From Burkholderiales bacterium (GTDB lineage Bacteria > Pseudomonadota > Gammaproteobacteria > Burkholderiales > Burkholderiaceae), in the NCBI GenBank assembly GCA_026225235.1, contig JAMFSK010000096.1:1-64000 (forward strand): DNA of 64,000 bases, in the 5' to 3' direction. This document shows, one piece after another, positions 5,094 to 56,753 of the stretch (its first letter is position 1; each line of letters begins with the position of its first letter). Below the pieces are notes generated by a model that did no database searches, was not told the origin of the DNA, and worked only from the letters and a program-made list of their open reading frames with translations. The position numbers and the translations under genes were made by a program.

Positions 5094-5136
5094 TTGACTC
5101 CCCCTGATGTAAGCAGGTAACCTTCGTAGGTTACCT
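5094..5136 (+). promoter_or_regulatory. Promoter and MarR operator upstream of the marR-like gene
   Basis: A perfect 8-bp inverted repeat, AGGTAACC then TTCGTA then GGTTACCT (5115-5136), ends 17 nt before the MarR start codon. A TTGACT hexamer at 5094-5099 could serve as -35 with a -10 (TAACCT) inside the dyad. The position fits autorepression, with MarR bound over the -10 region of its own operon. Confidence 0.65.
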
Positions 5137-5152
5137 TCTCATCTACCGAGTC

Positions 5153-5611
5153 ATGGCCGCGAACAAGCAGACGGTTGATCCCAATACAGCATTAGCGCTG
5201 TCGGTTGCTGGCGAGCTTCGCGAGCTAACCGGCAAGCTCAAGCGCAGGCTACGTGAAGAGTCGCGCATCGGAACCTTCACCTGGCCTCAGGTGCAAGTGC
5301 TAGTCCGTCTGGAGCGCGAAGGCCCCGCCACGGTGACGACGCTCGCGCGAGCGGAGGGTGTGCGGCCGCAATCGATGGGAGAAACGCTCTCGATTCTCAA
5401 GGCCGCAGGGCTCGTGAGCGGTGCCCCGGATCCGGCCGACGGACGGCAAACGGTCTTGTCCATCACCGAGCGCTGCCGGGAACTGATACGCGTGAACCGC
5501 GCGGCACGCGAGGACTGGTTGTTCCGTGCCATCCAGACTCAGCTCGCGCCCGACGAGCTGACACAGCTTGCGAACGCCGTCGAATTACTCAAGCGCATCG
5601 CCAACGCATGA
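5153..5611 (+). CDS. MarR family transcriptional regulator
   Basis: 152 residues. The winged helix is visible as TWPQVQVLVRLEREGPATVTTLARAEGVRPQSMGETLSILKAAGLV followed by the wing DPADGRQTVLSIT, with the D-x-R-D/G-R-x pattern of MarR. The first gene of an apparent operon with an isochorismatase-like hydrolase (39 nt downstream), a small membrane protein and an MFS exporter. MarR proteins usually repress such operons until a phenolic ligand binds; the ligand here is not known. Confidence 0.9.
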   Translation: MAANKQTVDPNTALALSVAGELRELTGKLKRRLREESRIGTFTWPQVQVLVRLEREGPATVTTLARAEGVRPQSMGETLSILKAAGLVSGAPDPADGRQTVLSITERCRELIRVNRAAREDWLFRAIQTQLAPDELTQLANAVELLKRIANA

Positions 5612-5650
5612 GCAGCGCCTCGCGCTCCCCCACATCCGAAGGAACCCCCA

Positions 5651-6214
5651 ATGCCCCTATCCACACTCGACGCTAAAACAGCGCTCGTCATTATCGATCT
5701 GCAGAAAGGCATCGTTGCGATTCCCGCCGCCCCTCCTGGCGACGACGTGGTCAAACAAGCCAGCTCGATGGCCAACGCTTTCCGCAAACACAGGCTGCCC
5801 GTTGTGCTCGTCAATGTCGATGGGGGTGCGCCAGGCCGGACTGAACAGCCGCGCAACCTGAGGGACCTTCCTGCTGGATGGTTCGATCTGGTCCCTGAGT
5901 TGAATCAACAGCCAGCCGACCATGTCGTGACCAAGCGGACTTGGGGCGCCTTTACAAACACGGATCTTGAGCAGCATCTGAAGCAACAAGGCGTCACACA
6001 AGTGGTGATCGCAGGCGTCGCGACCAGCGCCGGAGTGGAGTCCACTGCTCGGCAGGCCCACGAGCTCGGTTTCAACGTCACGCTTGCCATCGACGCGATG
6101 ACGGACCGGAGCCTCGACGCGCACATCAACAGCATCACCCGCATCTTCCCGAAGCTGGGTGAAACCGGCACGACTCAGGAGATCGTCGATCTCCTCGACA
6201 CAAGGAGCGTTTGA
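5651..6214 (+). CDS. Isochorismatase-like cysteine hydrolase family protein, catalytic Cys replaced by Gly
   Basis: 187 residues with the isochorismatase fold: strand 1 Asp in ALVIIDLQKGI (Asp16), the Lys region VTKRTWGAF, and the cis-peptide/nucleophile segment VVIAGVATSAGVESTARQA. In amidohydrolases of this superfamily the nucleophile sits in a C-V-x-x-T-A context; here that position is Gly, as in true isochorismatases which use no Cys. It sits in a MarR-controlled operon with a membrane protein and exporter. A ribosome binding site, AAGGAAC, precedes the ATG. Confidence 0.85.
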   Translation: MPLSTLDAKTALVIIDLQKGIVAIPAAPPGDDVVKQASSMANAFRKHRLPVVLVNVDGGAPGRTEQPRNLRDLPAGWFDLVPELNQQPADHVVTKRTWGAFTNTDLEQHLKQQGVTQVVIAGVATSAGVESTARQAHELGFNVTLAIDAMTDRSLDAHINSITRIFPKLGETGTTQEIVDLLDTRSV

Positions 6215-8965: not shown

Positions 8966-9607
8966 ATGCCAGCAGCCCAGCCGAAACAGCCCATTCGCCT
9001 CTACACGACGACTTTGTCGGGACACGGCCATCGCGTGAAGCAATTCCTGACGATGCTCGACCTGCCCTTCGAGGTGATCGAGATCGACATGAAAAGCCGG
9101 GCCAACCGGAAGCCTGAGTTCCTGGCCATCAGCCCGTTCGGGCAAGTGCCTGCAATTAAAGACGGCGACGTGGTGCTGTTCGATTCGAACGCGATTCTTG
9201 TCTATCTCGCGAAGCGGTATGGCGACGAGTCGTGGTTGCCGGAAGATCCGCTTGGCGCAGCAGCGGTCCAGCGCTGGTTTTCGCTTGCAGCCGGGCAAAT
9301 CGCGTTCGGTCCCTGCCGGGCCCGGCTCGTAACGGTGTTCGGCGCGCCGTTCGACCACGAAACGGCGAAGCGCACGGCGGTAGCACTCTTCGATGTCATC
9401 GAAGCGGAATTCGCGCACAATCAGTTTGCCGCTGGTGATCATCCGACCGTTGCCGATCTGGCCGCGCACGCGTATATCGCGCACGCCCCTGAAGGCGGTG
9501 TTTCGCTCGAACCCTATCCGAATTTGCGCGCGTGGATCAAGCGCGTCGAAGCCCTGCCGCGTTTTGTCGCGATGCCGCAGAGCAAGGCCGGTTTGCTCGC
9601 GGAATAA
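8966..9607 (+). CDS. Glutathione S-transferase
   Basis: 213 residues from the ATG at 8966, which has a GCGGAG ribosome binding site; an upstream in-frame ATG at 8861 would overlap the LysR promoter area. The thioredoxin-like N-terminal domain is clear: RLYTTTLSGHGHRVKQFL, the cis-Pro segment FGQVPAIKDGDVVLFDSNAIL with the glutathione-binding D/E-S pair, and a helical C-terminal domain with VADLAAHAYIAHA. It lies 41 bp before the large oxidoreductase, in the same direction, so both may answer to the LysR gene. Confidence 0.9.
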   Translation: MPAAQPKQPIRLYTTTLSGHGHRVKQFLTMLDLPFEVIEIDMKSRANRKPEFLAISPFGQVPAIKDGDVVLFDSNAILVYLAKRYGDESWLPEDPLGAAAVQRWFSLAAGQIAFGPCRARLVTVFGAPFDHETAKRTAVALFDVIEAEFAHNQFAAGDHPTVADLAAHAYIAHAPEGGVSLEPYPNLRAWIKRVEALPRFVAMPQSKAGLLAE

Positions 9608-9648
9608 ACGCCTGCTCGCTGCTCTACCCCGACTGATCGGAGGTTCTC

Positions 9649-11739
9649 ATGACCGAGATCTTCACCCCCTGGCCTGGCCCGTCGGCTACGGACTCCCCGT
9701 TTCACGCGGGCGAACTGGCGATACAGGAGCGCGCGGATGTCCTCGCGGCCGCCTGGTCGTCGGGGCAGCGCAGCATTCGTCCATTCATGCCGGACCAACA
9801 CCAGGCTTTTTTTGCCGAACAGCCCTTCATGGTGCTCGGCGGAATCGACGCGCAGGGGCAACCCTGGGCGACCTTGCGTGTGGGCGCGCCGGGTTTCACC
9901 TCGGCACTCGATGCGAAGACCTTGCGAATCGCCGGCGCTGCGCTGCCTGGCGATCCGCTCGGTGACGCATGGAAAATCGGCAGCATGATCGGCGGATTGG
10001 GCCTGCAACCGAAAACACGGCGACGCAATCGGGTAAATGGCGTCATCAAGTCCCTCGACGACAATGCGCTGACGCTGACGGTCAGTCAGAGCTTCGGCAA
10101 TTGCGCCAAGTACATCCAAAGCCGCACGCCGACCTTCGTTGCGCGAAGCGAATCTGAACCTGTTCAGCCGGCAAGCCACGCCGCGGCGCTGGATGACGCC
10201 GACCGGATGCTTCTTGAACGTGCGGACACTTTCTTCATTGCCAGCGCGAATATTGCAGAAGATGCGGGTCGCGCACGAGGCGTCGATGTCTCCCATCGTG
10301 GCGGAACGCCGGGTTTTGTGCGGATAGACGATGCGCACACACTGACCACGCCCGACTTCAGTGGAAACCGCTTCTTCAACACTTTGGGCAATCTTACACA
10401 CGATCCGCGTGCCGGTTTGCTCTTTGTCGACTTCGAGCGGGGCGACCTGATCTATATGGCGGCGGACGCAGAAATCATCTGGGATGCCGAGCAAATCAAA
10501 GCGTTTCCCGGCGCGGAACGACTGGTTCGCTTTCATATTCGAGAAGTGCGACGCAGCCCGGGCGTTCTGCCGTTCCGGTGGTCGCCGGTTGAGTTTGCCC
10601 CGCAGTTTACAGCGTTGCTGGCCGCACGCAAATCGGAAGTGTCCAAGTCGTGGAGGCCGTTCAAGGTCGTCGAAATTCGCCAGGAAACCTCGGCGATCCG
10701 CTCGTTTTATCTGGAAGCCGTGGATGGCAAGCCGATAGCGGCCTTTGAGCCCGGCCAGTACCTCCCGATCCAGATTCCCGTCGCGGGGCGAGAAGAACCG
10801 CTTGTGCGTACCTATACCTTGTCGGATGCGCACGATGGCTTACGCTATCGAATCTCGGTCAAACGTGAAGGTATTGCGTCCACTTGGCTGCATGATCATG
10901 TCGAAGTGGGCACGCAGATCAACGCAAAAACGCCACGTGGTTCGTTTTTTTTCGATGCGTCAAGCCCGCGGCCTGCCGTGCTGCTGTCAGCGGGCATCGG
11001 CATTACACCGATGATGGCGATCCTGAATCGCGCCAAAGCGGAAGGTACCGCCGCTGCGCCCCCGCGCGCAATGCACTTCATCCACGGCGCGCGCAACCAT
11101 CACGAGCGTCCGTTCGCTGATGACTTGAAGCGTTCTGCGTCGACAGGCACCAACGTGTCGGTTCATCTGCTGGACAGCAAGCCTGAGCCAGATGACGATG
11201 CGTCTCACGGACGGCTGCGTGGACGTGTGGACATCGCTCAGGTCAAGCGCTTGCTTCCGTTCGACGACTACGACTTCTATCTGTGTGGGCCGACCGCTTT
11301 CATGAGCGATATGTACGACGGCCTGCGCGCGTTGAACGTGCCCGACGAACGTATTCGCTTCGAGGCGTTTGGGCCGGCCAGCGTCAAACGTAACCCGACG
11401 AATGCTACTTCTGTAACAGCGGAGGGTTCAGTTTCGTCTGCCGCGGCATCGCAGGACACCCGGACCGCCGAGGTGGTGTTTGCCCGCTCCGAACGCACGA
11501 TCCGCTGGGCGCCGAAAGACGGCACCCTGCTCGAACTCGCGGAGGCAAATGGCATCCCGACGGAATCGAATTGCCGCGTCGGCGAGTGCGGAACGTGCTC
11601 GACGCGTCTGCGGGAAGGACGGGTCGCTTACAGCGGTCAGGTCGATGCGGAGATCAAACCGGGATGCGCGTTGTTGTGCGTCGGTCGACCGGATGTTTCG
11701 GACGTAGCAGGCGGCGCGCGCATCGTGCTTGATCTGTAG
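9649..11739 (+). CDS. Three-domain fusion: PNPOx-like FMN domain, ferredoxin-NAD(P)+ reductase domain and 2Fe-2S ferredoxin domain
   Basis: 696 residues. Residues ~40-320 look like a pyridoxamine-phosphate-oxidase-type split barrel. Residues ~335-430 form a ferredoxin-reductase FAD domain with the RTYTLSD flavin motif; ~440-560 hold the NAD(P) domain with LLSAGIGITPMMAIL and FYLCGPTAFM. Residues ~610-696 are a plant-type ferredoxin with the cluster cysteines in C-R-V-G-E-C-G-T-C and a fourth Cys near ALLCVGRP. Electrons would run NAD(P)H to flavin to 2Fe-2S. Such fusions are annotated as MOSC- or PNPOx-linked reductases; the substrate is unknown. Confidence 0.85.
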   Translation: MTEIFTPWPGPSATDSPFHAGELAIQERADVLAAAWSSGQRSIRPFMPDQHQAFFAEQPFMVLGGIDAQGQPWATLRVGAPGFTSALDAKTLRIAGAALPGDPLGDAWKIGSMIGGLGLQPKTRRRNRVNGVIKSLDDNALTLTVSQSFGNCAKYIQSRTPTFVARSESEPVQPASHAAALDDADRMLLERADTFFIASANIAEDAGRARGVDVSHRGGTPGFVRIDDAHTLTTPDFSGNRFFNTLGNLTHDPRAGLLFVDFERGDLIYMAADAEIIWDAEQIKAFPGAERLVRFHIREVRRSPGVLPFRWSPVEFAPQFTALLAARKSEVSKSWRPFKVVEIRQETSAIRSFYLEAVDGKPIAAFEPGQYLPIQIPVAGREEPLVRTYTLSDAHDGLRYRISVKREGIASTWLHDHVEVGTQINAKTPRGSFFFDASSPRPAVLLSAGIGITPMMAILNRAKAEGTAAAPPRAMHFIHGARNHHERPFADDLKRSASTGTNVSVHLLDSKPEPDDDASHGRLRGRVDIAQVKRLLPFDDYDFYLCGPTAFMSDMYDGLRALNVPDERIRFEAFGPASVKRNPTNATSVTAEGSVSSAAASQDTRTAEVVFARSERTIRWAPKDGTLLELAEANGIPTESNCRVGECGTCSTRLREGRVAYSGQVDAEIKPGCALLCVGRPDVSDVAGGARIVLDL

Positions 11740-13717: not shown

Positions 13718-14473
13718 TCACGCACGAACGACGGTCAGGCCGAGCTTCGCCAGCGGATCGATGAGCACCTTCTTCGCTGACCGCTCGACGATGATCGTCT
13801 GGGCGAGCGTTACCTCACCGATCGAATAGGCCGACGCTGCATTGAGCTTGTCCGATGAAGCCAGTACAACGGTCTCCGCTGCCCGTGCTGCCAGGGCGCG
13901 TTTTACATACGCCTCCTCCAGATCGCCGGTGCTCAACCCCGCGGTTGGATGCACGCCGGTAACCCCCATGAAATAGAGGTCAGCACGGATATGCGACATC
14001 GCCTCGATCGCCGCAGCGCCGACCGTCACGATTGAATGCTTGTAGAGCCGGCCACCGATCACGATCACTTCGATCGAGGGATGATCGACTAGCCCGACCG
14101 CCACGCTAGGACTGTGCGTAACTATGGTTGCGGCCAAATCGCGCGGAATGTGCCGTATCAGTTCGGCGGACGTAGTGCCGCCATCGACGATGACGATCTG
14201 GCCTTTGCCGATCATGCGCGCCGCCGCGATGGCGATCGCGCGCTTGCCTGAAGACTCCAGCTCGCGTCGCTCCACGAACGGAGCCACGGCAGACGAAGCG
14301 GGCAACGCGCCACCATGCACACGTTGCAGCAGACCCTCCCCCGCCAGTTCACGCAAGTCGCGACGAACAGTATCTTCCGACACGCCAAAGGTCTCGGCCA
14401 GTTCTCCCGCCAGCACCTGACCGTCCCGCTCCAGGGTCTCCAGGATCACTTTCTTGCGTTGAGTCGTCAGCAT
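13718..14473 (-). CDS. DeoR family transcriptional regulator
   Basis: 251 residues from the ATG at 14473. The DeoR helix-turn-helix is clear: RKKVILETLERDGQVLAGELAETFGVSEDTVRRDLRELAGEG, then LLQRVHGGALP. The C-terminal sugar-phosphate sensor has IVDGGTTSAELIRHIP and VIVIGGRLYKHS, as in DeoR regulators that bind phosphorylated sugars. It is divergent from a NudK-like gene; both may be controlled through GCACGA repeats in between. Confidence 0.9.
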   Translation of the reverse strand: MLTTQRKKVILETLERDGQVLAGELAETFGVSEDTVRRDLRELAGEGLLQRVHGGALPASSAVAPFVERRELESSGKRAIAIAAARMIGKGQIVIVDGGTTSAELIRHIPRDLAATIVTHSPSVAVGLVDHPSIEVIVIGGRLYKHSIVTVGAAAIEAMSHIRADLYFMGVTGVHPTAGLSTGDLEEAYVKRALAARAAETVVLASSDKLNAASAYSIGEVTLAQTIIVERSAKKVLIDPLAKLGLTVVRA

Positions 14474-25704: not shown

Positions 25705-26214
25705 TCACCGCAACGCGAACGACCTCCCGAAGAACACGACCGTGCCGAGCATTGCGAGGATCGCCGTCAGTCCCAGCATGATGGAGATGTGAAGGCCGAG
25801 CGTGTTCAGAATGGCGCCCCCCACCAGCGAGCCGACAGCAAGCACGAGCTGCAACAGCGAGGTGAATACTGCCCCGCGGCCCTCCTTGAGGTGACGCGCC
25901 GACAGCAGGATCCAGGTTTGCAGCGACACAGGCACTCCGCCACAAACCAATCCCCAAACGAGGACCAGCGCACTGGCTGCAACCGGCGCGATCGCACTGA
26001 CCAGTAGCAGCAGTGTGGCCGCCACACAGACAAGGCCGACTCCGGCACGGGACACGCGAACCCCGCGCTGACTGAGTGCGCCCATGACAGCATCTCCGAT
26101 CAATGCGGCGATGCTCAAGGTGAACAAGACACCGGCCACACGTTCCGGCGGCAGCGCAACGTAATCGGTCAGCAGCGAAAAAAAAAGGATAGTAGCCATG
26201 AGATGTCTCGTCAT
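25705..26214 (-). pseudogene. Truncated MFS transporter, C-terminal half only
   Basis: About 169 residues that align in layout to transmembrane segments 7-12 of an MFS exporter: ATILFFSLLTDYVA, VAGVLFTLSIAALIGDAVMG, and SLQTWILLSARHLKEGRGAV. Normal family members are near 390-400 residues; the N-terminal six segments are missing, and no other frame upstream carries them. A run of nine A on the plus strand (26178-26186) sits near the start. Probably a non-functional remnant. Confidence 0.6.
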
Positions 26215-26343
26215 GATCGGAGCGGCCCGAACCTTGCAACGGGCGGCGCAATTGGCCGCTCCGTGAATGCATAGTAGGGTTGCGTACCGAGGGAAATCCA
26301 TGACGCGACAAGTCAAGAAATAGCGGCAGACGGGTAAAGAATT

Positions 26344-26394: not shown

Positions 26395-27219
26395 ATGAAA
26401 ACCCAACAAGTCCCTTTCGGCGTGCTTCTGCGGCGCTGGCGCCAACAGCGCCGAATGACGCAGACCGATCTCGCCCTGGCGGCGGAGAGTTCGACTCGTC
26501 ATCTGTCATGTCTGGAAACGGGAAGAGCGCAACCGAGTCGCGAAATGATCACGCGCCTTGCCGAATATCTGGACGTTCCGCTTCGCGACCAGAACATGCT
26601 GCTTTTGGCTGCGGGGTTTGCACCGGCTTTTCAAGAGCGCTCAGTGGCCGATCTGGAAGCGGCGAAGCGTGCGATCGACAGCGTTCTGCAGGCGCACAAG
26701 CCCTACCCTGCCTTTGCGGTCGATCGACGGTGGAATGTGGTGCTGTCGAATGCAGCGCTTCCACAGCTTTATGAGGGGTGTTCGGCGGAACTCCTGGAGC
26801 CGCCAGTCAATGCTGTGCGATTGATCCTGCATCCGAAGGGCGTGGGGCAGCGGATCCTGAACTATTCCGAGTGGCGCGCCCATACCGTCAGCCTGCTTCG
26901 CCAGCAGATGGAAACGCGGGCCGACCCTGTGATTCACGCCCTGCTCGCGGAAGTGATGGCTTATCCGACGCCGCCCAATTCAGATAACCATGCGGGTTTC
27001 GACGCCTCGCCGAGGCTGGCCACCCCGCTTCGCATCCGCACACGATTGGGTACTGTGTCGTTCCTGAACACCATTACTGTTTTCGGCACACCGAATGACG
27101 TGACATTGGCGGAACTTGCGTTGGAAATGCTGTTCCCGGCTGATGAACGCACCGTCGAGATCGTTAAGAGCATGAACCAGGAGACGGCGGCGGTTATGGA
27201 TATGGCAGATTGGCGGTAG
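26395..27219 (+). CDS. XRE family regulator with MmyB-like ligand-binding domain
   Basis: 274 residues. The Xre helix-turn-helix is FGVLLRRWRQQRRMTQTDLALAAESSTRHLSCLETGRAQPS. The rest (about 100-270) is the MmyB-like domain: YPAFAVDRRWNVVLSNAA, then FLNTITVFGTPNDVTLAELALEMLFPAD. MmyB-like domains can bind fatty-acid-like ligands. It has a paralogue at 28608 in this window. The MFS remnant behind it may have been its original target. Confidence 0.92.
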   Translation: MKTQQVPFGVLLRRWRQQRRMTQTDLALAAESSTRHLSCLETGRAQPSREMITRLAEYLDVPLRDQNMLLLAAGFAPAFQERSVADLEAAKRAIDSVLQAHKPYPAFAVDRRWNVVLSNAALPQLYEGCSAELLEPPVNAVRLILHPKGVGQRILNYSEWRAHTVSLLRQQMETRADPVIHALLAEVMAYPTPPNSDNHAGFDASPRLATPLRIRTRLGTVSFLNTITVFGTPNDVTLAELALEMLFPADERTVEIVKSMNQETAAVMDMADWR

Positions 27220-27981: not shown

Positions 27982-28533
27982 ATGCAGAATTTCCCCCTTC
28001 ATACAATCGAATCAGCGCCCGAAAACTCGAAGCCTATCCTTCAGGCGCTCGAGCAGAAATTTGGCTTTTTGCCCAACGTGATGGCCACCATGGCCAACAA
28101 CCCCGTGCTGCTCAATGGATTCGCCGCCAGCTTCGGAAGTTTCCACGGCGGAAGTCTCGACGAATGCGAGAAGCAGACGCTCCTGCTCACGAATGCGGTC
28201 ACTATCAAGTGCCCTTGGACCGTGGCGGCGCACTCGACGTTCGCGCTCGAGGACGGCATGTCGGAGGCTGACGTGAATGCCATCCGCGTTGGCAAATTGC
28301 CGGCCACCCCGAAGTACGCAGCACTCTCAAGCATTACGAAAGCGCTCATCGAGAAGCGCGGAAATGTGAGCGACGCCGATATCGAGCGATTCACTTCGGG
28401 AGGATACTCTCGGGAACAGATCTTCGAAGTGATCACCAGTATTGGCATTTCCACGATGGCCGCCACCACGACGAATATGGCCGGCACACCGATCGAAGAT
28501 CGCTTTAAGGCTCAGAGCTGGTCTGCTGCCTGA
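27982..28533 (+). CDS. Carboxymuconolactone decarboxylase family protein, resolving Cys replaced
   Basis: 183 residues with the AhpD-like all-helical fold. The typical start of this group is present: LEQKFGFLPNVMATMANNPVLLNGF. The redox motif region reads NAVTIKCPWTVAAHSTFA; AhpD and its relatives have C-x-x-C before the His, here it is C-P-W-T, so the second Cys is lost. That rules out a standard disulfide peroxidase cycle. A GGAG site precedes the gene, and it is 74 bp before an XRE regulator. Confidence 0.88.
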   Translation: MQNFPLHTIESAPENSKPILQALEQKFGFLPNVMATMANNPVLLNGFAASFGSFHGGSLDECEKQTLLLTNAVTIKCPWTVAAHSTFALEDGMSEADVNAIRVGKLPATPKYAALSSITKALIEKRGNVSDADIERFTSGGYSREQIFEVITSIGISTMAATTTNMAGTPIEDRFKAQSWSAA

Positions 28534-28607
28534 AGAGTTTGACGGTGCGGGACGTTGGTCCGGAACACACCCGCACGTCAGTACGATCGACCACGAATCC
28601 AAACCCG

Positions 28608-29471
28608 ATGACGACATCCCAAGCAAACCCAAGGACCGAACGGGTGGCCAACGAACTGGGTACGCTATTGCGCCACTGGCGGGATATGCGTGGCACAAGC
28701 CAGTTCGATCTGTCGCTCGATACCGGCGTGTCGCAACGACATCTGAGCTTCATCGAAAGCGGCCGCAGTGTTCCCAGCCGCCAGACACTAATGCAGATTG
28801 CGCAAACACTCGATGTTCCACTACGCGATCGCAACACCTTGTTGCTCGCGGCAGGCTACGCACCGATCTATTCCGAAGGTGCGTGGAACGCCGTGGAAAT
28901 GCAGAGCGTCACTAGCGCGCTCGGCCGCGTTCTTCGTCAACACGAACCGTTTCCGGCGCTGGTGATGGATCGCTATTGGGACGTGCTCATGGTCAATGAA
29001 TCGACGCCGCGCTTTTTCAATTGCTTCATCGATTTGGCCGCGCGTAGGGGACCGCGCAATATGCTGCATCTGATGTTCGACCCAGAAGGCATGCGCCCCT
29101 TTGTCGCCAACTGGGAAGCCGTGGCACAAAGCCTGATCCAGCGCGTTTATCGGGAATCGGTTGCACGCGTTATCGACGACAAGACCAAGGAACTGCTTGC
29201 CTCACTGCAGGTCTATCGTGATGTGGAGCCCGAATGGAAGCTCCCCAAGACTCGCGGCACGCCAGCAACCATGCCGATGATCCCGATCACCTTCGTCAAA
29301 GACGAGAAGATGCTGAACTACTTTTCGATGGTGACTACGGTCGGCACGCCACAGACCGTGGCGGCTCAGGAACTGCGCATCGAATGTCTGTTTCCGGCAG
29401 ACGAGGCGACGGAGGCTCATCACATCGCAATGCTCGCGGCACTCGCGCAAGATCAAAAAACGAACGCATGA
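28608..29471 (+). CDS. XRE family regulator with MmyB-like ligand-binding domain
   Basis: 287 residues from the ATG at 28608. The helix-turn-helix is LGTLLRHWRDMRGTSQFDLSLDTGVSQRHLSFIESGRSVPS, and the rest is an MmyB-like ligand domain with FPALVMDRYWDVLMVNES and FSMVTTVGTPQTVAAQELRIECLFPAD. It resembles the regulator at 26395 across its length and is probably a paralogue. It follows the CMD gene by 74 bp and probably controls it. Confidence 0.92.
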   Translation: MTTSQANPRTERVANELGTLLRHWRDMRGTSQFDLSLDTGVSQRHLSFIESGRSVPSRQTLMQIAQTLDVPLRDRNTLLLAAGYAPIYSEGAWNAVEMQSVTSALGRVLRQHEPFPALVMDRYWDVLMVNESTPRFFNCFIDLAARRGPRNMLHLMFDPEGMRPFVANWEAVAQSLIQRVYRESVARVIDDKTKELLASLQVYRDVEPEWKLPKTRGTPATMPMIPITFVKDEKMLNYFSMVTTVGTPQTVAAQELRIECLFPADEATEAHHIAMLAALAQDQKTNA

Positions 29472-29552: not shown

Positions 29553-30314
29553 TTAGCCCGACACAATCGCAAACACACGCGCCGGAAAGTCGGATCCTTT
29601 CTTCGGCTTGGGCCACGTCGCCACGAGCAATGCTCCGCACTCCGGTAACTCGTCCAGACTAGCCATCAATTCGATCTGCCAGCGATCCCGCTCGAGCACA
29701 TAACGTTCGAGCGAACTACCGCCACGACTGATCGCGATGCCTCCGTCCGTGTCCATCGTTTCGTGCCCGCAAGCGATGGCATCCCCCGTCTCAAAGACGA
29801 AACGTAGCGCGTCGAGCGTCCATCCTGGGAAATGCGCGACGTCGTTGTTATCAAGGTTCAGCATGCGGTCTTTGCTAGGCCAGCGCGCCGACCATCCACT
29901 TCGTTTTGCCACAAAGGCGCCAGCTGGAATCAGGCCATTCCTTGACTCCCACTGTCGCACATCATCGAGCGACAGACAATAATCCGCATTGAATTCCACT
30001 TCGGCACGAATATCGACTACAACGAGCGGCAAGACCATCTCCGTCACTGGAATCTCATCGAGAAAGCGGTTCCCTTTGACGAAATGTGCGCCCGAATCGA
30101 CGTGAGTCCCCCATTGACCGACAAGGCTGTAGCGATGCGCAAGAAATCCCTGGCCCACCGAACCTGTCGCAGGTGGATGATCGTACAAGACTGTACGCTG
30201 TTCGGGATCGAAGAGCGGCGAATGCGGAATGGTCTCGTCAAACGCATGCGTCAAATCGATAAAACGACAATGTCGCAGACGATCGACGATGGCCCATAGA
30301 GCGTGCCCCATCAT
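29553..30314 (-). CDS. Cyclase/kynurenine-formamidase-like metal-dependent hydrolase
   Basis: 253 residues. The PF04199 cyclase motif is visible as FIDLTHAFDETIPHSPLFD at the N-terminus and WGTHVDSGAHF around residue 75, matching the H-x-G-T-H-x-D-x-x-x-H metal site, with the first His replaced by Gln-Trp. The core LDALRFVFETGDAIACGHETMDTD also matches the family. Last gene of the DUF1537-PdxA2 operon, following the cupin gene by 2 nt. It could act as a lactonase or amide hydrolase on the acid-sugar substrate. The start at 30311 is equally possible. Confidence 0.83.
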   Translation of the reverse strand: MMGHALWAIVDRLRHCRFIDLTHAFDETIPHSPLFDPEQRTVLYDHPPATGSVGQGFLAHRYSLVGQWGTHVDSGAHFVKGNRFLDEIPVTEMVLPLVVVDIRAEVEFNADYCLSLDDVRQWESRNGLIPAGAFVAKRSGWSARWPSKDRMLNLDNNDVAHFPGWTLDALRFVFETGDAIACGHETMDTDGGIAISRGGSSLERYVLERDRWQIELMASLDELPECGALLVATWPKPKKGSDFPARVFAIVSG

Positions 30315-30316
30315 TG

Positions 30317-30694
30317 TCAGATCCTGTCCAGCGTCGTGCGGGTGCGCTCGTTCACCACGTTGCCGGTATTGATCGTGGTGCGAGGCTCGAGCAGCAAGCA
30401 ATGAACCTCATCCGAAACCGCTTCCGGACAATGCACGATGCCTTTTGGCACGATCACATACTCGCCCTCGTTGATGATCACCTCGCCCCCGTTTTCCGGC
30501 TTCATTCTCATCCGCAACGTGCCTTTTACGACGAGAAACAGTTCATCCTCGTTGTCGTGATGGTGCCAATTAAAAGTGCCGCTGAACTTGGCAAACTTCA
30601 ACTGGGACTCGTTGATGTCGCCACCAATCTTCGGCGACCAGTATTCCGATACGCCTGCGAAGGCTGCCGCGATGTTGACCTTGTTGACGATCAT
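30317..30694 (-). CDS. Small cupin domain protein
   Basis: 125 residues, a single cupin barrel. Motif 1 is GTFNWHHHDNEDELFLVVKGTLRM and motif 2 is EYVIVPKGIVHCPEA, with three His and one Glu as metal ligands. The ATG overlaps the TIM-barrel stop by ATGA. Similar small cupins are often isomerases or dioxygenases; none has been linked to acid-sugar catabolism that I know of. It is in the five-gene operon. Confidence 0.85.
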   Translation of the reverse strand: MIVNKVNIAAAFAGVSEYWSPKIGGDINESQLKFAKFSGTFNWHHHDNEDELFLVVKGTLRMRMKPENGGEVIINEGEYVIVPKGIVHCPEAVSDEVHCLLLEPRTTINTGNVVNERTRTTLDRI

Positions 30695-31368
30695 GCTGTT
30701 ACTCCACCGATCTGGAAAATGGTGTCCACTTGCGCCGCCAGCAAGCGGTCGACAAACGCGCCCTGGAAAATCGCGCTGCCGACTGTAAAGCCCCAAATGC
30801 CTGTGTCGTTCATCGCCTGTACCCGCGCAACGCTGTCGATACTGCCAGCAGCGATAACAGGAACACCTACGGCTTCCACAACACGCCGGGTCAGCTCAAC
30901 CGGATCACCCTCGCCGACAAAACGATAAGCGAGCAGATCGAGGCCATGGACACCTGGCAGCGCTGCGATGCGGCGCGCGTCCTCGACGATTTCGTCCATC
31001 GTGCCTTCCAGCGAAGTGGGATGTCTGACAGTATGGCCCGCGAAAGGAAAGTATTGAACTTGAGAACCGTTCAGTAGTTTCAAGGCGTCGTCGACATGAC
31101 GGCCGCCCAGCAGATAGTCGACACCGATGTCAAGCGCAGCCCGAATGGACTCAAGTTCGGTTTGACGGTCAGTGGCGACCACTTCCAGCATCACCTTTCG
31201 GCCGTCGGCCCGAATCCGCATAGCAAGCTGCTTGAGTTGCGCCACAGGCAAACCTATATCCTTGAACCCGACGTAGTGGATCGGGCTATCGCGCATGCTG
31301 TCGTAGGCGCTCATCGCGTCGGCGACCGTCTCGTCGTTCTGGGTCAACATTAAAATAAAGTGGGACAC
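30691..31368 (-). CDS. TIM-barrel protein of unknown function (ribulose-phosphate-binding barrel type)
   Basis: 225 residues from a GTG at 31368, which has a GGAG site 8 nt upstream; longer frames run into the PdxA2 gene. Eight beta strands can be picked out in order: FILMLT, HYVGFKDIG, KVMLEVV, VDYLLGG, QYFPFAG, GLDLLAYRF, PVIAAGS and WGFTVGSAIF. The last two have the phosphate-binding Gly-Ser turns of HisA/HPS-like barrels, and K-D in GFKDIG could be catalytic. Its stop overlaps the cupin start. I cannot assign a reaction. Confidence 0.75.
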   Translation of the reverse strand: MSHFILMLTQNDETVADAMSAYDSMRDSPIHYVGFKDIGLPVAQLKQLAMRIRADGRKVMLEVVATDRQTELESIRAALDIGVDYLLGGRHVDDALKLLNGSQVQYFPFAGHTVRHPTSLEGTMDEIVEDARRIAALPGVHGLDLLAYRFVGEGDPVELTRRVVEAVGVPVIAAGSIDSVARVQAMNDTGIWGFTVGSAIFQGAFVDRLLAAQVDTIFQIGGVTA

Positions 31369-31399
31369 GATGTGCTCCGGTGGTGGGTCGATGCTCCGC

Positions 31400-32386
31400 T
31401 CAGGAGCGAATGAATTGGTGTGCCATTTGAAGCGCCACTTGCAGGCTTGCGGGATCGGCAATGCCCTGCCCTGCGATGTCAAAGGCGGTGCCGTGATCAG
31501 GGCTCGTGCGAACGAACGGCAACCCCACGGTGATGCTGACGCCGTCTTCAACGCCAGCGAGCTTCACAGGTATCAGACCCTGGTCGTGATACTGGGCCAC
31601 GACGATATCGAAGCGCCCGCGCCGCGCATTCATAAAGACGGTGTCGCCGGGCCACGGGCCACTCGCGTCGATTCCTTCTCCTTTCGCGGCGCGGATGGCC
31701 GGCCCGATAATGTCGATATCTTCGCGTCCAAACAGCCCCCCTTCGCCTGCGTGAGGATTCAATCCGGCGACTGCTACACGTGGCCGCTCGATGCCAAGGT
31801 CCCGCATGGCCCGATGAGCGAGCCGGATAATGCGAAGTTCGCTTTCGATAGAGAGCCTTGCGATTGCGTTCAGCATCGAACAATGGACCGTCACGAGAAT
31901 CGTACGTAGCATTGGATTGACAAGCATCATGGCGTAGTCACGAGTGCCGGAGAGGTCCGCCAGCATTTCCGTGTGCCCCGGGTAAGGAGCCCGCGCGGCG
32001 GCAAGCGCTTTCTTGTGAATCGGCGCCGTACAAATGCCCGCGATTTCGCCTTTCATGGCGAATTCGATCGCCATTCGGATAGCGTCGTATGCCGCCTTCC
32101 CCGCGAGTGCACTTACTTGTCCGGTCGGCAAATCAGCGGGTAATTCGCTGGTGTTCAGCACTTCAAGTACGCCGGGACGCGGAGCAGCCTGAGCTGTCGA
32201 TGTGATGGCCCTCACCTCGAGCAGCAGGCCGAGCTTTGCAGTTTGTGCCCTCAGCACGCCGACGTCACCGATCACAAACGATGGGTGTCCATCGATGAAA
32301 GACGCATTCGCAAAGGTCTTGAGGACGATTTCCGGACCAATGCCCGCAGCGTCCCCCATTGTCACGGCTATTAGTTTCCTGCTCAT
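31400..32386 (-). CDS. pdxA2: PdxA2-like 4-phospho-D-threonate/erythronate 3-dehydrogenase
   Basis: 328 residues of the PdxA family. Metal-binding His segments are visible: YPGHTEMLADL (about residue 136), LNPHAGEGG (about 208) and YHDQGLIPVKL (about 264). The frame starts MSRKLIAVTMGDAAGIGPEIV. Housekeeping PdxA acts in vitamin B6 synthesis; a copy fused into an operon with a DUF1537 kinase is typical of PdxA2, which oxidatively decarboxylates 4-phospho-D-threonate or -erythronate to dihydroxyacetone phosphate. The start overlaps the kinase stop by 4 nt. Confidence 0.88.
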   Translation of the reverse strand: MSRKLIAVTMGDAAGIGPEIVLKTFANASFIDGHPSFVIGDVGVLRAQTAKLGLLLEVRAITSTAQAAPRPGVLEVLNTSELPADLPTGQVSALAGKAAYDAIRMAIEFAMKGEIAGICTAPIHKKALAAARAPYPGHTEMLADLSGTRDYAMMLVNPMLRTILVTVHCSMLNAIARLSIESELRIIRLAHRAMRDLGIERPRVAVAGLNPHAGEGGLFGREDIDIIGPAIRAAKGEGIDASGPWPGDTVFMNARRGRFDIVVAQYHDQGLIPVKLAGVEDGVSITVGLPFVRTSPDHGTAFDIAGQGIADPASLQVALQMAHQFIRS

Positions 32387-33471
32387 TGCCCCACTCCTTT
32401 CAATGCATCAAGACAGACCAGAAAGGCGTCATCCTGGCCGAAGCCGCCCGCTTTCGTGATCATGGGAAATCTCCCGGCGGCGGTGTCGACCATGGCGAGC
32501 GCGACGCCGGGCAGCACTTCGCGACATACGCATAGCGACAGCGCCGGGAGCGCGTCGACGATCTGTCTCGCGGTTTCGCCTCCGGTCACGACCAACCCAT
32601 CACACACGCCGCTGCGCAACAGATCGGCGGCCTGATGGGCGACGTCATGCAAAGCAGATCGTGGTGACGAACGGACTTCACGAGTCGCAAGAACTTGGAT
32701 GTGTCGACTCGACTGCACCGCTTCGAGCTGCAAGCGCGAGCGCGGATTCAAACTGCCAACAACGAGCAAGGGACGCTGTGCCGCATTGACAGCTGAGTCG
32801 AGTCCTTTGGCACCGCTGTCAGCCGGCACGGGCAGCACACGAGCCATCGCTCGCAGCATCCCAGTCGAACCGGCCCACAAAACATCAGCCCTCGTCGCGA
32901 AGGTTTCCACGAGTGTGTCGAGTTCGTTTTCTGTCTGTGCGTCGACAACGACCGCATCATGCGTTTCGAGCAGTACTCTGGTGTGTGCCGCGTCGCGCGC
33001 CACTGCAACGCACACGTCATGCGTCTTAAAGAGGGCCGGTACACTCGATTCCCGGACCGGCAGCGTCGGATCGCGACCGAAGGCACTTTCGTGTACGAGC
33101 ACGCCGTCGGCATACACCCGTCCAGCCCGGGTAGTTCGTCCCGCCGCAGGGAACGCAGGCACAATCAAAAGCTTCCGTCGCCCCGAAGCCGCAAGCGCTG
33201 ACAGGCAGTCAAGAGCAACACGCCCGCGCAGAGTCGAATCGAATTGGAGAACCAATAGGTCCGCGTTGCTCCAGGCGCGGGCAGCGGCATACACAGCGTC
33301 GCCCGCGCTCCCGGCAACGTTTTCGCGCGTACGGGTATCGATGCTGGCGACAACGACGTTTTCCTCGCCGGCTGTCCCCAGTTGAACATCAGCATCCCAG
33401 CCGCGTTGTGCGAAACACGCCGTGCCATCAAGCGCGCTGCTGAAATCGTCCGTGATGATGCGGATTCGCAT
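32383..33471 (-). CDS. dtnK: Four-carbon acid sugar kinase (DUF1537), D-threonate/D-erythronate kinase type
   Basis: 362 residues from the ATG at 33471. The N-domain begins MRIRIITDDFSSALDGT, with the Asp pair that DUF1537 kinases use for catalysis, then DLLVLQFDSTLRGR. The C-domain has the ATP-binding segment around 260-330: LRSGVCDGLVVTGGETARQIVDAL and PMITKAGGFGQDDAFL. Its product would be the substrate for the PdxA2 enzyme it overlaps. The gene symbol is by family and context; the exact acid sugar (threonate or erythronate) is not fixed by the sequence. Confidence 0.85.
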   Translation of the reverse strand: MRIRIITDDFSSALDGTACFAQRGWDADVQLGTAGEENVVVASIDTRTRENVAGSAGDAVYAAARAWSNADLLVLQFDSTLRGRVALDCLSALAASGRRKLLIVPAFPAAGRTTRAGRVYADGVLVHESAFGRDPTLPVRESSVPALFKTHDVCVAVARDAAHTRVLLETHDAVVVDAQTENELDTLVETFATRADVLWAGSTGMLRAMARVLPVPADSGAKGLDSAVNAAQRPLLVVGSLNPRSRLQLEAVQSSRHIQVLATREVRSSPRSALHDVAHQAADLLRSGVCDGLVVTGGETARQIVDALPALSLCVCREVLPGVALAMVDTAAGRFPMITKAGGFGQDDAFLVCLDALKGVGQ

Positions 33472-33488
33472 GGCCGTCCTGTGATATG

Positions 33489-33536
33489 TTTGGTTCGTCA
33501 ATTCTGATCTTTTTCAGATATTTTTGAAGAACCAAA
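33489..33536. promoter_or_regulatory. Nested dyad between the acid-sugar operon and the MocR gene
   Basis: Outer perfect inverted repeat TTTGGTTC (33489-33496) and GAACCAAA (33529-33536), centres 40 bp apart, about four helical turns. Inside it lies TCTGA (33503-33507) and TCAGA (33514-33518). It fills most of the 87-bp gap between the divergent genes and is very likely the MocR operator. Confidence 0.65.
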
Positions 33537-33558
33537 ACCGAGGCATTTTCTAGCGTCT

Positions 33559-35025
33559 ATGGTTGCGACTCCGTCATCCAGGCAACAGTTGCCCGCTTTG
33601 CTCGATCTCGACATCGACCGGCAAGTGGACCTCCCCGTGTTCCGACAGATCGCCACGCGTTTGCGCGAGCACATCGGACGTGGCGTTCTGCCGGCGGGTA
33701 CCCGTCTGCCGCCGAGTCGAGAACTGGCCACACAACTCGCCGTCGCCCGCAACTGCGTGATCGATGCATACGATGAACTGATCGCCGACGGCCTGCTCGA
33801 AGGGCGTGGCCGTCACGGCACGTTCGTCGCGGCCAATGCAAGCGCCAAACGCTCGACCAAAAAGCACCCAAACTGGGCGCCCTCTGCGTTGCGGCGACAT
33901 ACGGTGCATGGTTACCCCGTGCCGGTGCCGGACAACGCCGCGTTCGACTGGCGCCCAGGGCTTGCGAACGCGCGCAGCTTGCCGCTCGATGCGTGGCGCA
34001 CCGCATGCCGCGAAGCGGGCCGTCATTTGCCGCCGCAAGGTTATGGCGACCCGCGCGGCGATCAGGACCTCAGGCGAGCGATCGTCAGGTGGCTGCATGA
34101 GCACCGATCCGTGCGAGTCGAGCCCGAGCAGATCGTCGTCACACAAGGCACCGGGCAAGCGCTGACTTTGATTACGCAGGCACTTCTGCGCACAGGCGAT
34201 CGGTGTGCAACCGAAGATCCGGGCTATGCCGGCGCAGCGGTCGCGTTTCTTCGGGCGGGTGCATCGCTGCGTTATGTGCCCGTAGACGGAGACGGCATTC
34301 GCGTCGATGACATCGTGGAAGGACAATCGGCTCCGGTGATGGTGCATATCACGCCCACTCATCAATACCCAATGGGCGGCCGCTTGTCCGGACCGCGTCG
34401 GCGGGCCTTGATCGAACTCGCGCGCCAGCACGGCACGCTGATTCTCGAGAACGAGTACGACTTTGAGTTCAACTACGCCGGGACAAACCATCCTCCCGTC
34501 TTCTCCAGCGCGCCGGAAAGCACCCTCCTGCTCAGCACCTTTGCGAAAGCGGTGAGTCCTGCGCTGCGGCTGGGGTTTATTACGGCTCCGCCTGAAGCGG
34601 CGAATGTGCTTGCCGCATTCATCGAGCGCGAACGCTCTCACGTGTCATGGCCCGCGCAAAAGGTGATTGAACAACTGATGGTGTCCGGTGAACTCGACCG
34701 GCATTTGCGACGAGTTCGCCGACACTATGCGGCGATACGTGAGGCCATCCGTGAGCGGCTGGCCGTGTATCAATCGGTGATCGAGATCACGGGCGACGAG
34801 GGGGGATTGCACGTTGTCGTATGCGGGCGCACGCGCGCACTCGATCGGAAGTTGCAGGCCACCTTAAGAGCGCAGGGCGTGCTCTTCGATTGCGTCCGGC
34901 AATTTGCGACGCTCGATCCTGACGCAAACGGATTGCTATTCGCGTACGGGCATATGGACACTGAGATGCTTGTTACGTCGCTTGACCAATTGGAGCGCTG
35001 CGTCAAGGAGATGTCGCGCCGCTAA
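33559..35025 (+). CDS. MocR-type regulator: GntR helix-turn-helix fused to PLP-dependent aminotransferase-like domain
   Basis: 488 residues. Residues ~15-90 are a GntR winged helix (QIATRLREHIGRGVLPAGTRLPPSRELATQLAVARN, then YDELIADGLLEGRGRHGTFVA). Residues ~110-485 form a fold type I aminotransferase domain; the PLP Lys is in STFAKAVSPALRLGF. MocR proteins bind PLP and a ligand and often control PLP or amino-sugar metabolism. It faces the acid-sugar operon containing the PdxA-like enzyme. Confidence 0.92.
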   Translation: MVATPSSRQQLPALLDLDIDRQVDLPVFRQIATRLREHIGRGVLPAGTRLPPSRELATQLAVARNCVIDAYDELIADGLLEGRGRHGTFVAANASAKRSTKKHPNWAPSALRRHTVHGYPVPVPDNAAFDWRPGLANARSLPLDAWRTACREAGRHLPPQGYGDPRGDQDLRRAIVRWLHEHRSVRVEPEQIVVTQGTGQALTLITQALLRTGDRCATEDPGYAGAAVAFLRAGASLRYVPVDGDGIRVDDIVEGQSAPVMVHITPTHQYPMGGRLSGPRRRALIELARQHGTLILENEYDFEFNYAGTNHPPVFSSAPESTLLLSTFAKAVSPALRLGFITAPPEAANVLAAFIERERSHVSWPAQKVIEQLMVSGELDRHLRRVRRHYAAIREAIRERLAVYQSVIEITGDEGGLHVVVCGRTRALDRKLQATLRAQGVLFDCVRQFATLDPDANGLLFAYGHMDTEMLVTSLDQLERCVKEMSRR

Positions 35026-55229: not shown

Positions 55230-56753
55230 ATGAACGTCATGCTCGAGATGCGCGGCATCAGCAAGCGCTTCGGCACGGTCCAGGCGAATCGCGAGGTCGA
55301 TCTCACGGTTCCCGCCGGTTGTATCGTGGCCTTGCTTGGCGAGAACGGCTCCGGCAAGAGCACGTTGATGAAGCTGCTGTTCGGCATGGAACGGCCCGAC
55401 AGCGGCGGCATCGTCTTTAAGGGCCGAGAGTTCGAGCCTGCCGGGCCGCGCGACGCGATCGCCGCGGGCATCGGCATGATTCACCAGCACTTCATGCTGG
55501 TCGAGTCGATGTCGGTCGTCGACAACGTGATGCTTGGCTGGACCGAAGCGGGCACGTGGCTGCGACGCGGTGAAATGATCCGTCGCATCCGCGAGGTCAG
55601 TGCGCGTTACGGGCTCGATCTCGACCCGCACCAGTGGGTGCGCGACTTGCCGTTCGGCATGCGCCAGCGCATCGAGATCGTCAAGGCGATTGTGCGTGGT
55701 GCCGATCTCCTGATCCTCGACGAGCCCACCTCGAACCTCAGTGCGCCTGAAGTCGCTGGTCTGATGACGGTGATGCGACGGATGCGCGACGAGGGTCGCT
55801 CGGTGATCTTCATCTCGCACAAACTCGGCGAGGTCATGGAGATCTGTGACGAGGGCATCGTGCTGCGCGACGGCAGCGTGGTCGGCCATTTCGATGTGGC
55901 CGCGGTCACGCGCAGCGAACTGGCTCGCATGATGGTCGATCGCGATCTCGACAGCGCCGCCGACCGGACCGAGCGCCCACCGGGCGAGGTGCTGCTGCAT
56001 GTCGAAGGCCTGGGCCTCGATGGCGGTCACAGTGGGGGAGCCGGGAGCGGTTTGCCCCTGCTCGGCAATATCGGATTTTCCTTGCACGAGGGCGAGATCC
56101 TTGCGATCGCCGGCATCGACGGCAATGGCCAGACCGAGTTGATCGAATGCCTCGCTGGCCTGCGTACGCCGACGCGCGGCGTGGTCACGCTGGCGGGTGT
56201 CGACGTGACGTTCGCGAGCGTCAAAGAGCGTCTTGCAGCGGGGCTCGCCTATATTCCGGTCGACCGTGCGACCACCAGCCTCATCCCGGCGATGTCGATC
56301 GAAGACAACCTCGCGATGCGCGACTTCGATCTGGCGCCATGGAAACGCGGTACCTGGCTCGATCGCGCCGCGTTCCGGGACGTCGCGACCCAACGCATTC
56401 GCGATTTCTCGATCGCCTGCGCAGGACCCGAGGTCCCGGCCCGCACGCTCTCAGGCGGCAACCAGCAGAAGATCGTCATCGCGCGCGAGGTCGGACGCCA
56501 GCCGCGCGTGCTGCTCGCCGCGCAACCGACCTGGGGTCTCGATCCCGGTGCGACCCGCTTTGTGATCGACCAGTTGCTTGCGCTGCGCAATGCCGGGGCC
56601 GCCGTGCTCTATGTCTCATCCGAACTCGAGGAGGTCATGATGCTCGGCGACCGGATCGGCGTCATGAGCGGCGGCATGCTCAAGGGCGTGGTACGGCGCG
56701 CGGAGGTCGACCTGACCGCGATCGGCATGATGATGGCCGGGGCGCCGAACTGA
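55230..56753 (+). CDS. ABC transporter ATPase with two nucleotide-binding domains (nucleoside/BMP type)
   Basis: 507 residues. NBD1 has Walker A GENGSGKSTLMK, Walker B LLILDEPTSNLS and the D-loop; its signature is LPFGMRQ instead of LSGGQ. NBD2 has a Walker A-like GIDGNGQTELIE, signature LSGGNQQKIVIAREV and Walker B LLAAQPTWGLDPG. This split is typical of the YufO/NupA class that powers BMP-dependent importers. It starts 11 nt after the binding-protein gene. Confidence 0.93.
   Translation: MNVMLEMRGISKRFGTVQANREVDLTVPAGCIVALLGENGSGKSTLMKLLFGMERPDSGGIVFKGREFEPAGPRDAIAAGIGMIHQHFMLVESMSVVDNVMLGWTEAGTWLRRGEMIRRIREVSARYGLDLDPHQWVRDLPFGMRQRIEIVKAIVRGADLLILDEPTSNLSAPEVAGLMTVMRRMRDEGRSVIFISHKLGEVMEICDEGIVLRDGSVVGHFDVAAVTRSELARMMVDRDLDSAADRTERPPGEVLLHVEGLGLDGGHSGGAGSGLPLLGNIGFSLHEGEILAIAGIDGNGQTELIECLAGLRTPTRGVVTLAGVDVTFASVKERLAAGLAYIPVDRATTSLIPAMSIEDNLAMRDFDLAPWKRGTWLDRAAFRDVATQRIRDFSIACAGPEVPARTLSGGNQQKIVIAREVGRQPRVLLAAQPTWGLDPGATRFVIDQLLALRNAGAAVLYVSSELEEVMMLGDRIGVMSGGMLKGVVRRAEVDLTAIGMMMAGAPN

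Follow-up and report, generated by a model that had tools for sequence, protein, structure and literature searches.

A MocR-associated kinase, PdxA and TIM-barrel operon of a Burkholderiales bacterium as a possible module for the breakdown of 4-hydroxythreonine

The DNA analysed here is a 64,000-nucleotide stretch (the window) of contig JAMFSK010000096.1 from a Burkholderiales bacterium, and the system in question is an operon in which genes for a DUF1537 kinase, a PdxA protein, a TIM barrel, a small cupin and a cyclase-family hydrolase lie divergently from a gene for a MocR-type regulator. It is a real, sporadically distributed module, and our best reading, to which we give a probability of about 0.42, is that it may serve, under the control of MocR, to catabolise or detoxify 4-hydroxythreonine or a hydroxy-amino acid very close to it. 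The substrate, every reaction and the regulation of the operon are what we infer from its genes and their relatives elsewhere. Among the titles and abstract openings of open-licence PMC papers, no description was recognised of an operon with DUF1537, TIM barrel and cupin, of this TIM family with PdxA or of hydroxythreonine catabolism, and the available part of the rhizosphere paper PMC3333776 held nothing on the operon genes.

The PdxA protein (31400-32386, minus strand; Pfam PdxA) was labelled PdxA2 in the preliminary description of this DNA. The label is doubtful, since the residue after the HDQG motif is Leu271 (codon CTG, 31574-31576) and not the His of PdxA2, and since the protein groups with sole-copy biosynthetic PdxAs. 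The residue presumably sits between the metal-binding His and the substrate-binding Lys of Escherichia coli PdxA. It was Leu in all 25 TIM-linked PdxAs (HDHG-L in L060) and in the three sole-copy PdxAs, His in 14/14 paralogue controls, and Gln in the copy on contig C116 of the window genome, which stands in our list twice (L043 and L006); another 17 PdxA rows had Leu (10, three of them as HDQA-L), His (4) or Gln (3). Three genomes (G062, G443 and G759) hold a TIM-linked PdxA together with another paralogue carrying His (L168, L185, L186). Among solved structures, His is found in 2hi1 (PdxA2) and 6e85 (D-threonate 4-phosphate dehydrogenase) and Leu in 1yxo and 6xmy, both named PdxA. Taken as a specificity marker, the residue gives the window PdxA the biosynthetic (4-phosphohydroxythreonine) and not the threonate signature.

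The trees point in the same direction. In the first, the 25 TIM-linked PdxA rows formed one group (100/99), set only against acid-sugar-type paralogues and the C116 copy. In the second, of 42 rows and without 11 of the 25 TIM-linked and 7 of the 15 control rows of the first, the 14 TIM-linked PdxAs used fell inside a 27-row group (99/97) together with biosynthetic-type PdxAs. This group excludes the acid-sugar-type paralogues and includes the PdxAs of G482, G210 and G549, which should serve vitamin B6 synthesis because each is the sole PdxA of a genome that has one PdxJ. That TIM-linked PdxAs form a single clade, as in the first tree with its narrow choice of controls, was rejected on the strength of the second. 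The rows did not include G389 C13, G389 C22 and G062 C82, three PdxA matches that have no locus. The kinship of PdxA with vitamin B6 synthesis, found suggestive earlier, is meaningful. Among profile models, TIGR00557 gave 370.7 bits against a cut-off of 290.35, and as the acid-sugar-like C130 copy of the same genome also passes (362.7) the model does not discriminate, while the PdxA2 model NF002891 gave 336 bits against a cut-off of 583, with the kinase-linked C130 copy also below it (317).

The kinase (32383-33471, minus strand) is of a short, TIM-linked type (362 aa) with the motifs DDFSSALDG, DSTLRG, PAFPAAGR and KAGGFG. Both PF07005 and PF17042 (SBD_N and NBD_C) match it, the NBD_C match covering profile positions 99-168 only. 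At the last position of the DDxx(S/G) kinase motif all 22 TIM-linked kinases have Ser and all 10 controls Gly, and the TIM-linked kinases formed a 22-row, weakly supported group in the first tree (80/68). According to the available part of PMC7954711, DUF1537 proteins can phosphorylate 4-hydroxythreonine, and 4-hydroxythreonine is toxic.

The TIM barrel (30691-31368, minus strand) has a phosphate-binding motif, and Thr9, Asp12, Lys36, Asp37, Glu62, His116 and Arg149 are invariant in 36/36 sequences of the family. Its structure model has a mean pLDDT of 92.6 and matches HisA, RPE, thiamin phosphate synthase, OMP decarboxylase, hexulose-phosphate synthase (Z 20.4) and PdxJ (Z 18.6-18.9); as many TIM barrels score alike, the fold gives no function. 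With HisA, HisF and other ribulose-phosphate-binding barrels it has the fold and the C-terminal phosphate-binding half in common, and its sequence likeness to HisA is limited to this phosphate-binding end. Two identities were rejected: HisA, for which TIGR00007 reached 24.4 bits against a cut-off of 228.95 over residues 154-205 only, and PdxJ, as there was no PF03740 match at 0.001. The barrel remains outside any assigned family, as had been proposed. In public annotation the family appears as "4-hydroxythreonine-4-phosphate dehydrogenase", cupin protein or hypothetical protein.

It is the fusions of the barrel that suggest its place in the pathway. In G389, a 603-aa protein joins PdxA and TIM. 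In six loci (L077, L078, L079, L126, L128 and L129, the two members of each of the pairs L077/L078 and L126/L129 belonging to the same genus) the barrel carries a C-terminal methylglyoxal synthase (MGS) domain, and in L055, L056, L058, L074 and L127 a C-terminal cupin domain. For the L128 MGS domain, matches to solved methylglyoxal synthases reach 8.4e-26, and the GGDQQ and FFxDP stretches are retained. PdxA-TIM and TIM-MGS fusions were seen in different organisms, never within one protein. Methylglyoxal synthase uses dihydroxyacetone phosphate. If the PdxA product were also dihydroxyacetone phosphate, no step would be left between PdxA and MGS; if it were 3-amino-2-oxopropyl phosphate, one deaminating isomerisation would be missing, and this would be the role of the barrel. 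Because of the fusions to PdxA, methylglyoxal synthase and cupin, the barrel probably converts the PdxA product into a triose phosphate, so that it is better read downstream of PdxA than as the upstream lactone, amide or epimer step first suggested. Near the TIM-MGS fusion gene we also noticed a gene for a HalD-like 2-oxoglutarate halogenase/hydroxylase (L126:7526-8389 and L128:11522-12430), an enzyme that might produce or alter a hydroxy amino acid. A gene of the MTTB (trimethylamine methyltransferase) family lies directly upstream of the fusion gene in L077 (5876-7420), and a gene that by eye is methylisocitrate-lyase/PEP-mutase-like directly precedes the solo TIM gene of L081 (6342-7226).

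In the pathway that we propose, the kinase would convert 4-hydroxythreonine to 4-phosphohydroxythreonine, and the biosynthetic-type PdxA would oxidise and decarboxylate this to 3-amino-2-oxopropyl phosphate, an aminoketone hitherto described as a precursor of vitamin B6. The TIM barrel, as a new phosphate-binding family, would release the amino group and feed a triose phosphate into glycolysis; its mechanism may involve a Schiff base on Lys36, suggested only by the invariance of this residue, or a reverse Amadori shift. The cupin would act close to the barrel. A possible role of the cyclase-family hydrolase is to open the substrate where it occurs as a lactone or amide. The full version of this proposal is more tentative and somewhat doubtful, namely a dedicated degradation of 4-hydroxythreonine via 3-amino-2-oxopropyl phosphate in which an undescribed TIM family yields triose phosphate and ammonia and its solo or MGS-fused forms guard against leakage. 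Recycling of 4-hydroxythreonine by DUF1537, reportedly described by Thiaville in 2016, shares the proposed kinase substrate and the PdxA step; in contrast, the extra enzymes and regulators of the window suggest breakdown rather than recycling to PLP.

The layout of the operon, with MocR divergent and facing kinase-PdxA-TIM-cupin-cyclase, is confirmed in genes, order and strands, and the idea of a kinase-PdxA pair extended by further linked genes is borne out. Kinase and PdxA, and TIM and cupin, overlap by 4 nt, and cupin and cyclase are 2 nt apart; the tight joining described for the extra genes holds at these junctions but not between PdxA and TIM, which are spaced by 31 nt (31369-31399). The small cupin (30317-30694, minus strand; Pfam Cupin_2) is in some alphaproteobacteria fused to the TIM barrel. 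The cyclase (29553-30314, minus strand) matches PF04199 at 113.2 bits against a cut-off of 23.1 and is isatin-hydrolase-like in sequence (7.5e-28 to isatin hydrolase A; 1.5e-30 to 8f9x, another cyclase-family protein). Cupin and cyclase follow the TIM gene in 4/9 intact Burkholderiales loci only (the window, L044, L045 and L047), and both are accordingly regarded as accessory.

The module is found well beyond the window. In L044, L045 and L047 all five genes and MocR occur in the identical order, with protein identities of 61-80%, which is more than chance and answers the earlier call to look for this order across genomes. MocR-kinase-PdxA-TIM occurs in five further Burkholderiales loci, giving nine intact sets among 11 loci (the window and L044-L053). 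These 11 were found via the TIM gene, so TIM presence there is by construction and proves nothing; L044, L045 and L046 were equated with G087, G062 and G076 and counted once each. Of the incomplete loci, L052 starts inside PdxA at a contig end and has the cyclase, apparently split over two frames, and then the cupin. L050 (Candidimonas nitroreducens) has a whole TIM gene (9200-9891), with kinase and PdxA matched as pieces only (71 and 73 residues), and was left out of both trees and the neighbour count. When the search started from PdxA instead, a close PdxA was present in 4/349 Burkholderiaceae genomes with TIM beside it in all four. Across the phylum it was present in 9/398 genomes, with TIM adjoining in the window genome (G000), G389, G443 and G519, and no TIM match in the stretches around the PdxA of G243, G534, G482, G549 and G210. 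The notion that all extra genes are passengers was rejected on the grounds of this 4/4 linkage and the TIM fusions. Absence of the extra genes from homologous operons had been named as a sign of passengers, and here TIM accompanies the close PdxA of Burkholderiaceae, with cupin and cyclase present in 4/9 intact Burkholderiales loci.

The TIM gene itself was detected in 12/398 Pseudomonadota genomes (at 1e-15), in 9/199 genomes of the family of G443, at 10 loci in a pattern-limited scan of genome contigs and in 23 plasmid records. Among 199 relatives, four including the window genome had a strong match, matches at E 4.8e-6 and weaker being taken as HisA-like noise; the same-genus genomes G001 and G002 had no TIM match, and no relatives were found in viral contigs. 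In plasmid records, the order was LysR-kinase-PdxA-TIM in 9/10 looked at, the exception being Gluconobacter (L054), which lacks the kinase; the PdxA of L086 was missing from its gene table and was located by tblastn. A 34-residue, 65% identical TIM piece near a contig end of G074 (L040:8418-8519) is perhaps a remnant.

The MocR-type regulator (33559-35025, plus strand) has both the GntR helix-turn-helix and the aminotransferase domain, and scores 348.9 bits with the NCBIfam PdxR model, above its cut-off of 320. Between it and the kinase lies an inverted repeat (33489-33536), TTTGGTTC.../...GAACCAAA, with arms of 13 nt each (33489-33501 and 33524-33536) that are 92% complementary. The dyad noted earlier is real: an alignment of nine MocR/kinase intergenic regions shows the left box TTTGGTT in all and the right box GAACCAA exactly in seven, L053 having one mismatch and L051 no right box. 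It is conserved and operator-like, a candidate MocR operator, and MocR would be expected to control the operon. According to the available part of the regulon survey PMC5320631, MocR regulators of amino-acid-like pathways are common and threonine synthase and RidA proteins are among MocR-controlled genes, while DUF1537 does not appear in the part of its main text available to us. In L044 a phage-type integrase gene (5104-5907) adjoins the MocR gene, in line with spread by transfer.

Amino-acid genes were sought in the neighbourhoods with a panel of ThrB, ThrC, Tdh, Kbl, LtaE, DSD1/alanine-racemase-like protein, RidA, DAO, OCD, M20 and class III aminotransferase. The reference proteins came from the annotated L056-L060 plus L046 and L049, and these seven donors and the broken L050 were not counted. 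Panel genes were near 6/14 TIM+PdxA loci (L048, L053, L073, L075, L124 and L125) and 0/13 control PdxA2 loci, a count that is inflated as L075 and L125 are close to donor L057 and L124 to donor L058, and in which L053 is not independent, sharing an 87% identical gene with donor L049. None were near L044, L045, L047, L051, L052, L054, L055 or L076. Within the family of G443, panel genes were in 3/3 TIM+PdxA loci and 0/13 controls, all 13 of which come from that family as best-scoring matches (of the best 15, the TIM-linked match in G443 and the match in G723 were not taken). Some loci are cut by contig ends, and L084-L086 stood outside the search, their annotated neighbours being read instead. 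A DAO-ThrC-ThrB set lies beside the MocR gene in Ralstonia (L046) and Paraburkholderia lacunae (L048), and family matches confirmed threonine synthase, homoserine kinase and threonine aldolase in L046. In L057 (13496-16025) an APH-type kinase adjoins a class III aminotransferase, a pair annotated in L084 and L086 too, which we take to recall hydroxylysine kinase plus phospholyase.

Three DUF1537 kinases and the same number of PdxA proteins are encoded in the window genome. The C130 locus comprises a DeoR-like regulator, an aldehyde dehydrogenase, a sugar-type ABC transporter, a 424-aa kinase and a PdxA2, and the C14 locus a sugar-type ABC transporter with OtnI-, OtnC- and OtnK-like genes; these names come mostly from reading translations, with only kinase and PdxA found by profiles. 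The ABC genes of the two loci resemble each other (28-37%). As C130 and C14 already look like acid-sugar loci, the window operon would be a third, different one. The third PdxA (L006, on C116 of G000), with Gln after HDQG, falls together with PdxA-like proteins from G243 and G534, so that no clear housekeeping PdxA emerged from this assembly, which is 84% complete. No tRNA gene was found in the window. Downstream of the operon are two related XRE-type regulator genes close together (26395-27219 and 28539-29471, the latter MmyB-like), and one of the pair adjoins a carboxymuconolactone-decarboxylase-like gene (27982-28533). A DeoR-like regulator (13784-14401) and an RbsA-like ABC ATPase (55257-56684), 36% and 35% identical to those of C130, are far from the operon. 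The nearest transporter-like gene noticed is a minus-strand frame of about 200 aa (25705-26316), by eye a partial membrane transporter.

Several observations weigh against hydroxy-amino-acid breakdown. No transporter turned up next to the operon; panel genes were found neither in the 64-kb window nor near L044, L045 and L047, the closest counterparts of the operon in gene order; and the dependence on donor loci reduces the weight of the neighbour count. Beside TIM, 13/18 loci taken from genomes have no PdxA or kinase match (L074, L077-L083 and L126-L130), and no kinase lies near L054 and L076. The second PdxA tree had long branches and a program warning, and the TIM-linked PdxAs were not one clade in it (four changes). 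The solved structures nearest to the window PdxA are the His-type 4jqp, 2hi1 and 6e85 (2.2e-88 to 1.4e-85), with the Leu-type 1yxo (6.1e-67) and 6xmy ranking behind, and 4jqp carries His despite being named 4-hydroxythreonine-4-phosphate dehydrogenase. The window PdxA is 55-58% identical to the PdxAs of G482, G210 and G549 and 60% to the copy in G243 and G534, but also 47% to C130, 36% to C116 and only 37-39% to the other PdxA of G062, G076 and G087. With His-type nearest structures and such mixed identities, overall likeness does not settle the PdxA type, and it is tree and signature that carry the assignment. In addition, DUF1537 kinases are rather acid-sugar enzymes in the available part of PMC7954711, and in that of PMC9997740 PdxA2 can also catalyse the PdxA reaction and serves organic-acid catabolism; the promiscuity of DUF1537 and PdxA2 counts in the same sense.

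The acid-sugar pathway of the preliminary description would lead from a C4 acid sugar (a threonate or erythronate epimer) to dihydroxyacetone phosphate by way of the kinase and PdxA, with the other genes processing a lactone, amide or epimer. Pairs of DUF1537 and PdxA2 are said to do this (Zhang, 2016), and in the D-threonate pathway the two families (DtnK and PdxA2) are likewise adjacent in one operon. The available part of PMC7954711 describes such pathways too, the nearest solved structures of the window PdxA are of the His type, sugar-phosphate epimerases are among the many enzymes that the TIM fold resembles, and the D-threonate kinase model NF047819 matches the kinase at 2.6e-38. However, this match has 132 bits against an equivalog cut-off of 450, the signature residues of PdxA and kinase (Leu type, short DDxxS type) are unlike those of the controls, and the window differs from the D-threonate system in its extra TIM, cupin and cyclase, in the MocR or LysR control of TIM-linked loci and in that no sugar transporter was found beside the operon. 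The genome already has two acid-sugar-like loci, and dihydroxyacetone phosphate needs no further dedicated enzyme, yet TIM accompanied the close PdxA in every Burkholderiaceae genome that had one. We lowered our best reading and its full version slightly and raised this rival because of the His-type structures and the many TIM loci without PdxA; hydroxy-amino-acid breakdown is still the likelier, though by no great margin, and the acid-sugar substrate, given the PdxA signature and tree and the two other loci, is probably wrong.

Salvage of vitamin B6 would have kinase and PdxA supply the PdxJ route to pyridoxine phosphate from recycled 4-hydroxythreonine, regulated by a PdxR-like MocR that senses PLP; this is less likely again. 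A MocR above the PdxR cut-off would also fit vitamin B6 control, which tells against breakdown, and the biosynthetic-type PdxA signature and the lack of a clear housekeeping PdxA agree with salvage. As in DXP-dependent vitamin B6 synthesis (PdxA-PdxJ), a PdxA of the same signature is followed by a TIM barrel with PdxJ among its fold matches; unlike there, this barrel has no PdxJ family match and PdxJ is elsewhere in the genome, once in each of the 14 genomes looked at. The PdxJ route has no known step for TIM, cupin or cyclase, and plasmid-borne versions use LysR, several of them among catabolic genes. About as improbable is another small hydroxy-acid or hydroxy-amino acid with TIM as an aldolase or condensing enzyme on the PdxA product: Lys36 is invariant as a Schiff-base lysine would be, and the fold matches include aldolases and synthases of the same superfamily, but the neighbourhoods suggest no second substrate and the MGS fusion speaks for a C3 phosphate.

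If the operon does serve the breakdown of 4-hydroxythreonine or a very close hydroxy-amino acid, a TIM-barrel family now annotated as dehydrogenase, cupin or hypothetical protein would gain a function, and a simple residue test would tell acid-sugar from amino-acid users among PdxA2-like genes. It would also show how soil and root bacteria handle a toxic analogue of threonine and homoserine.

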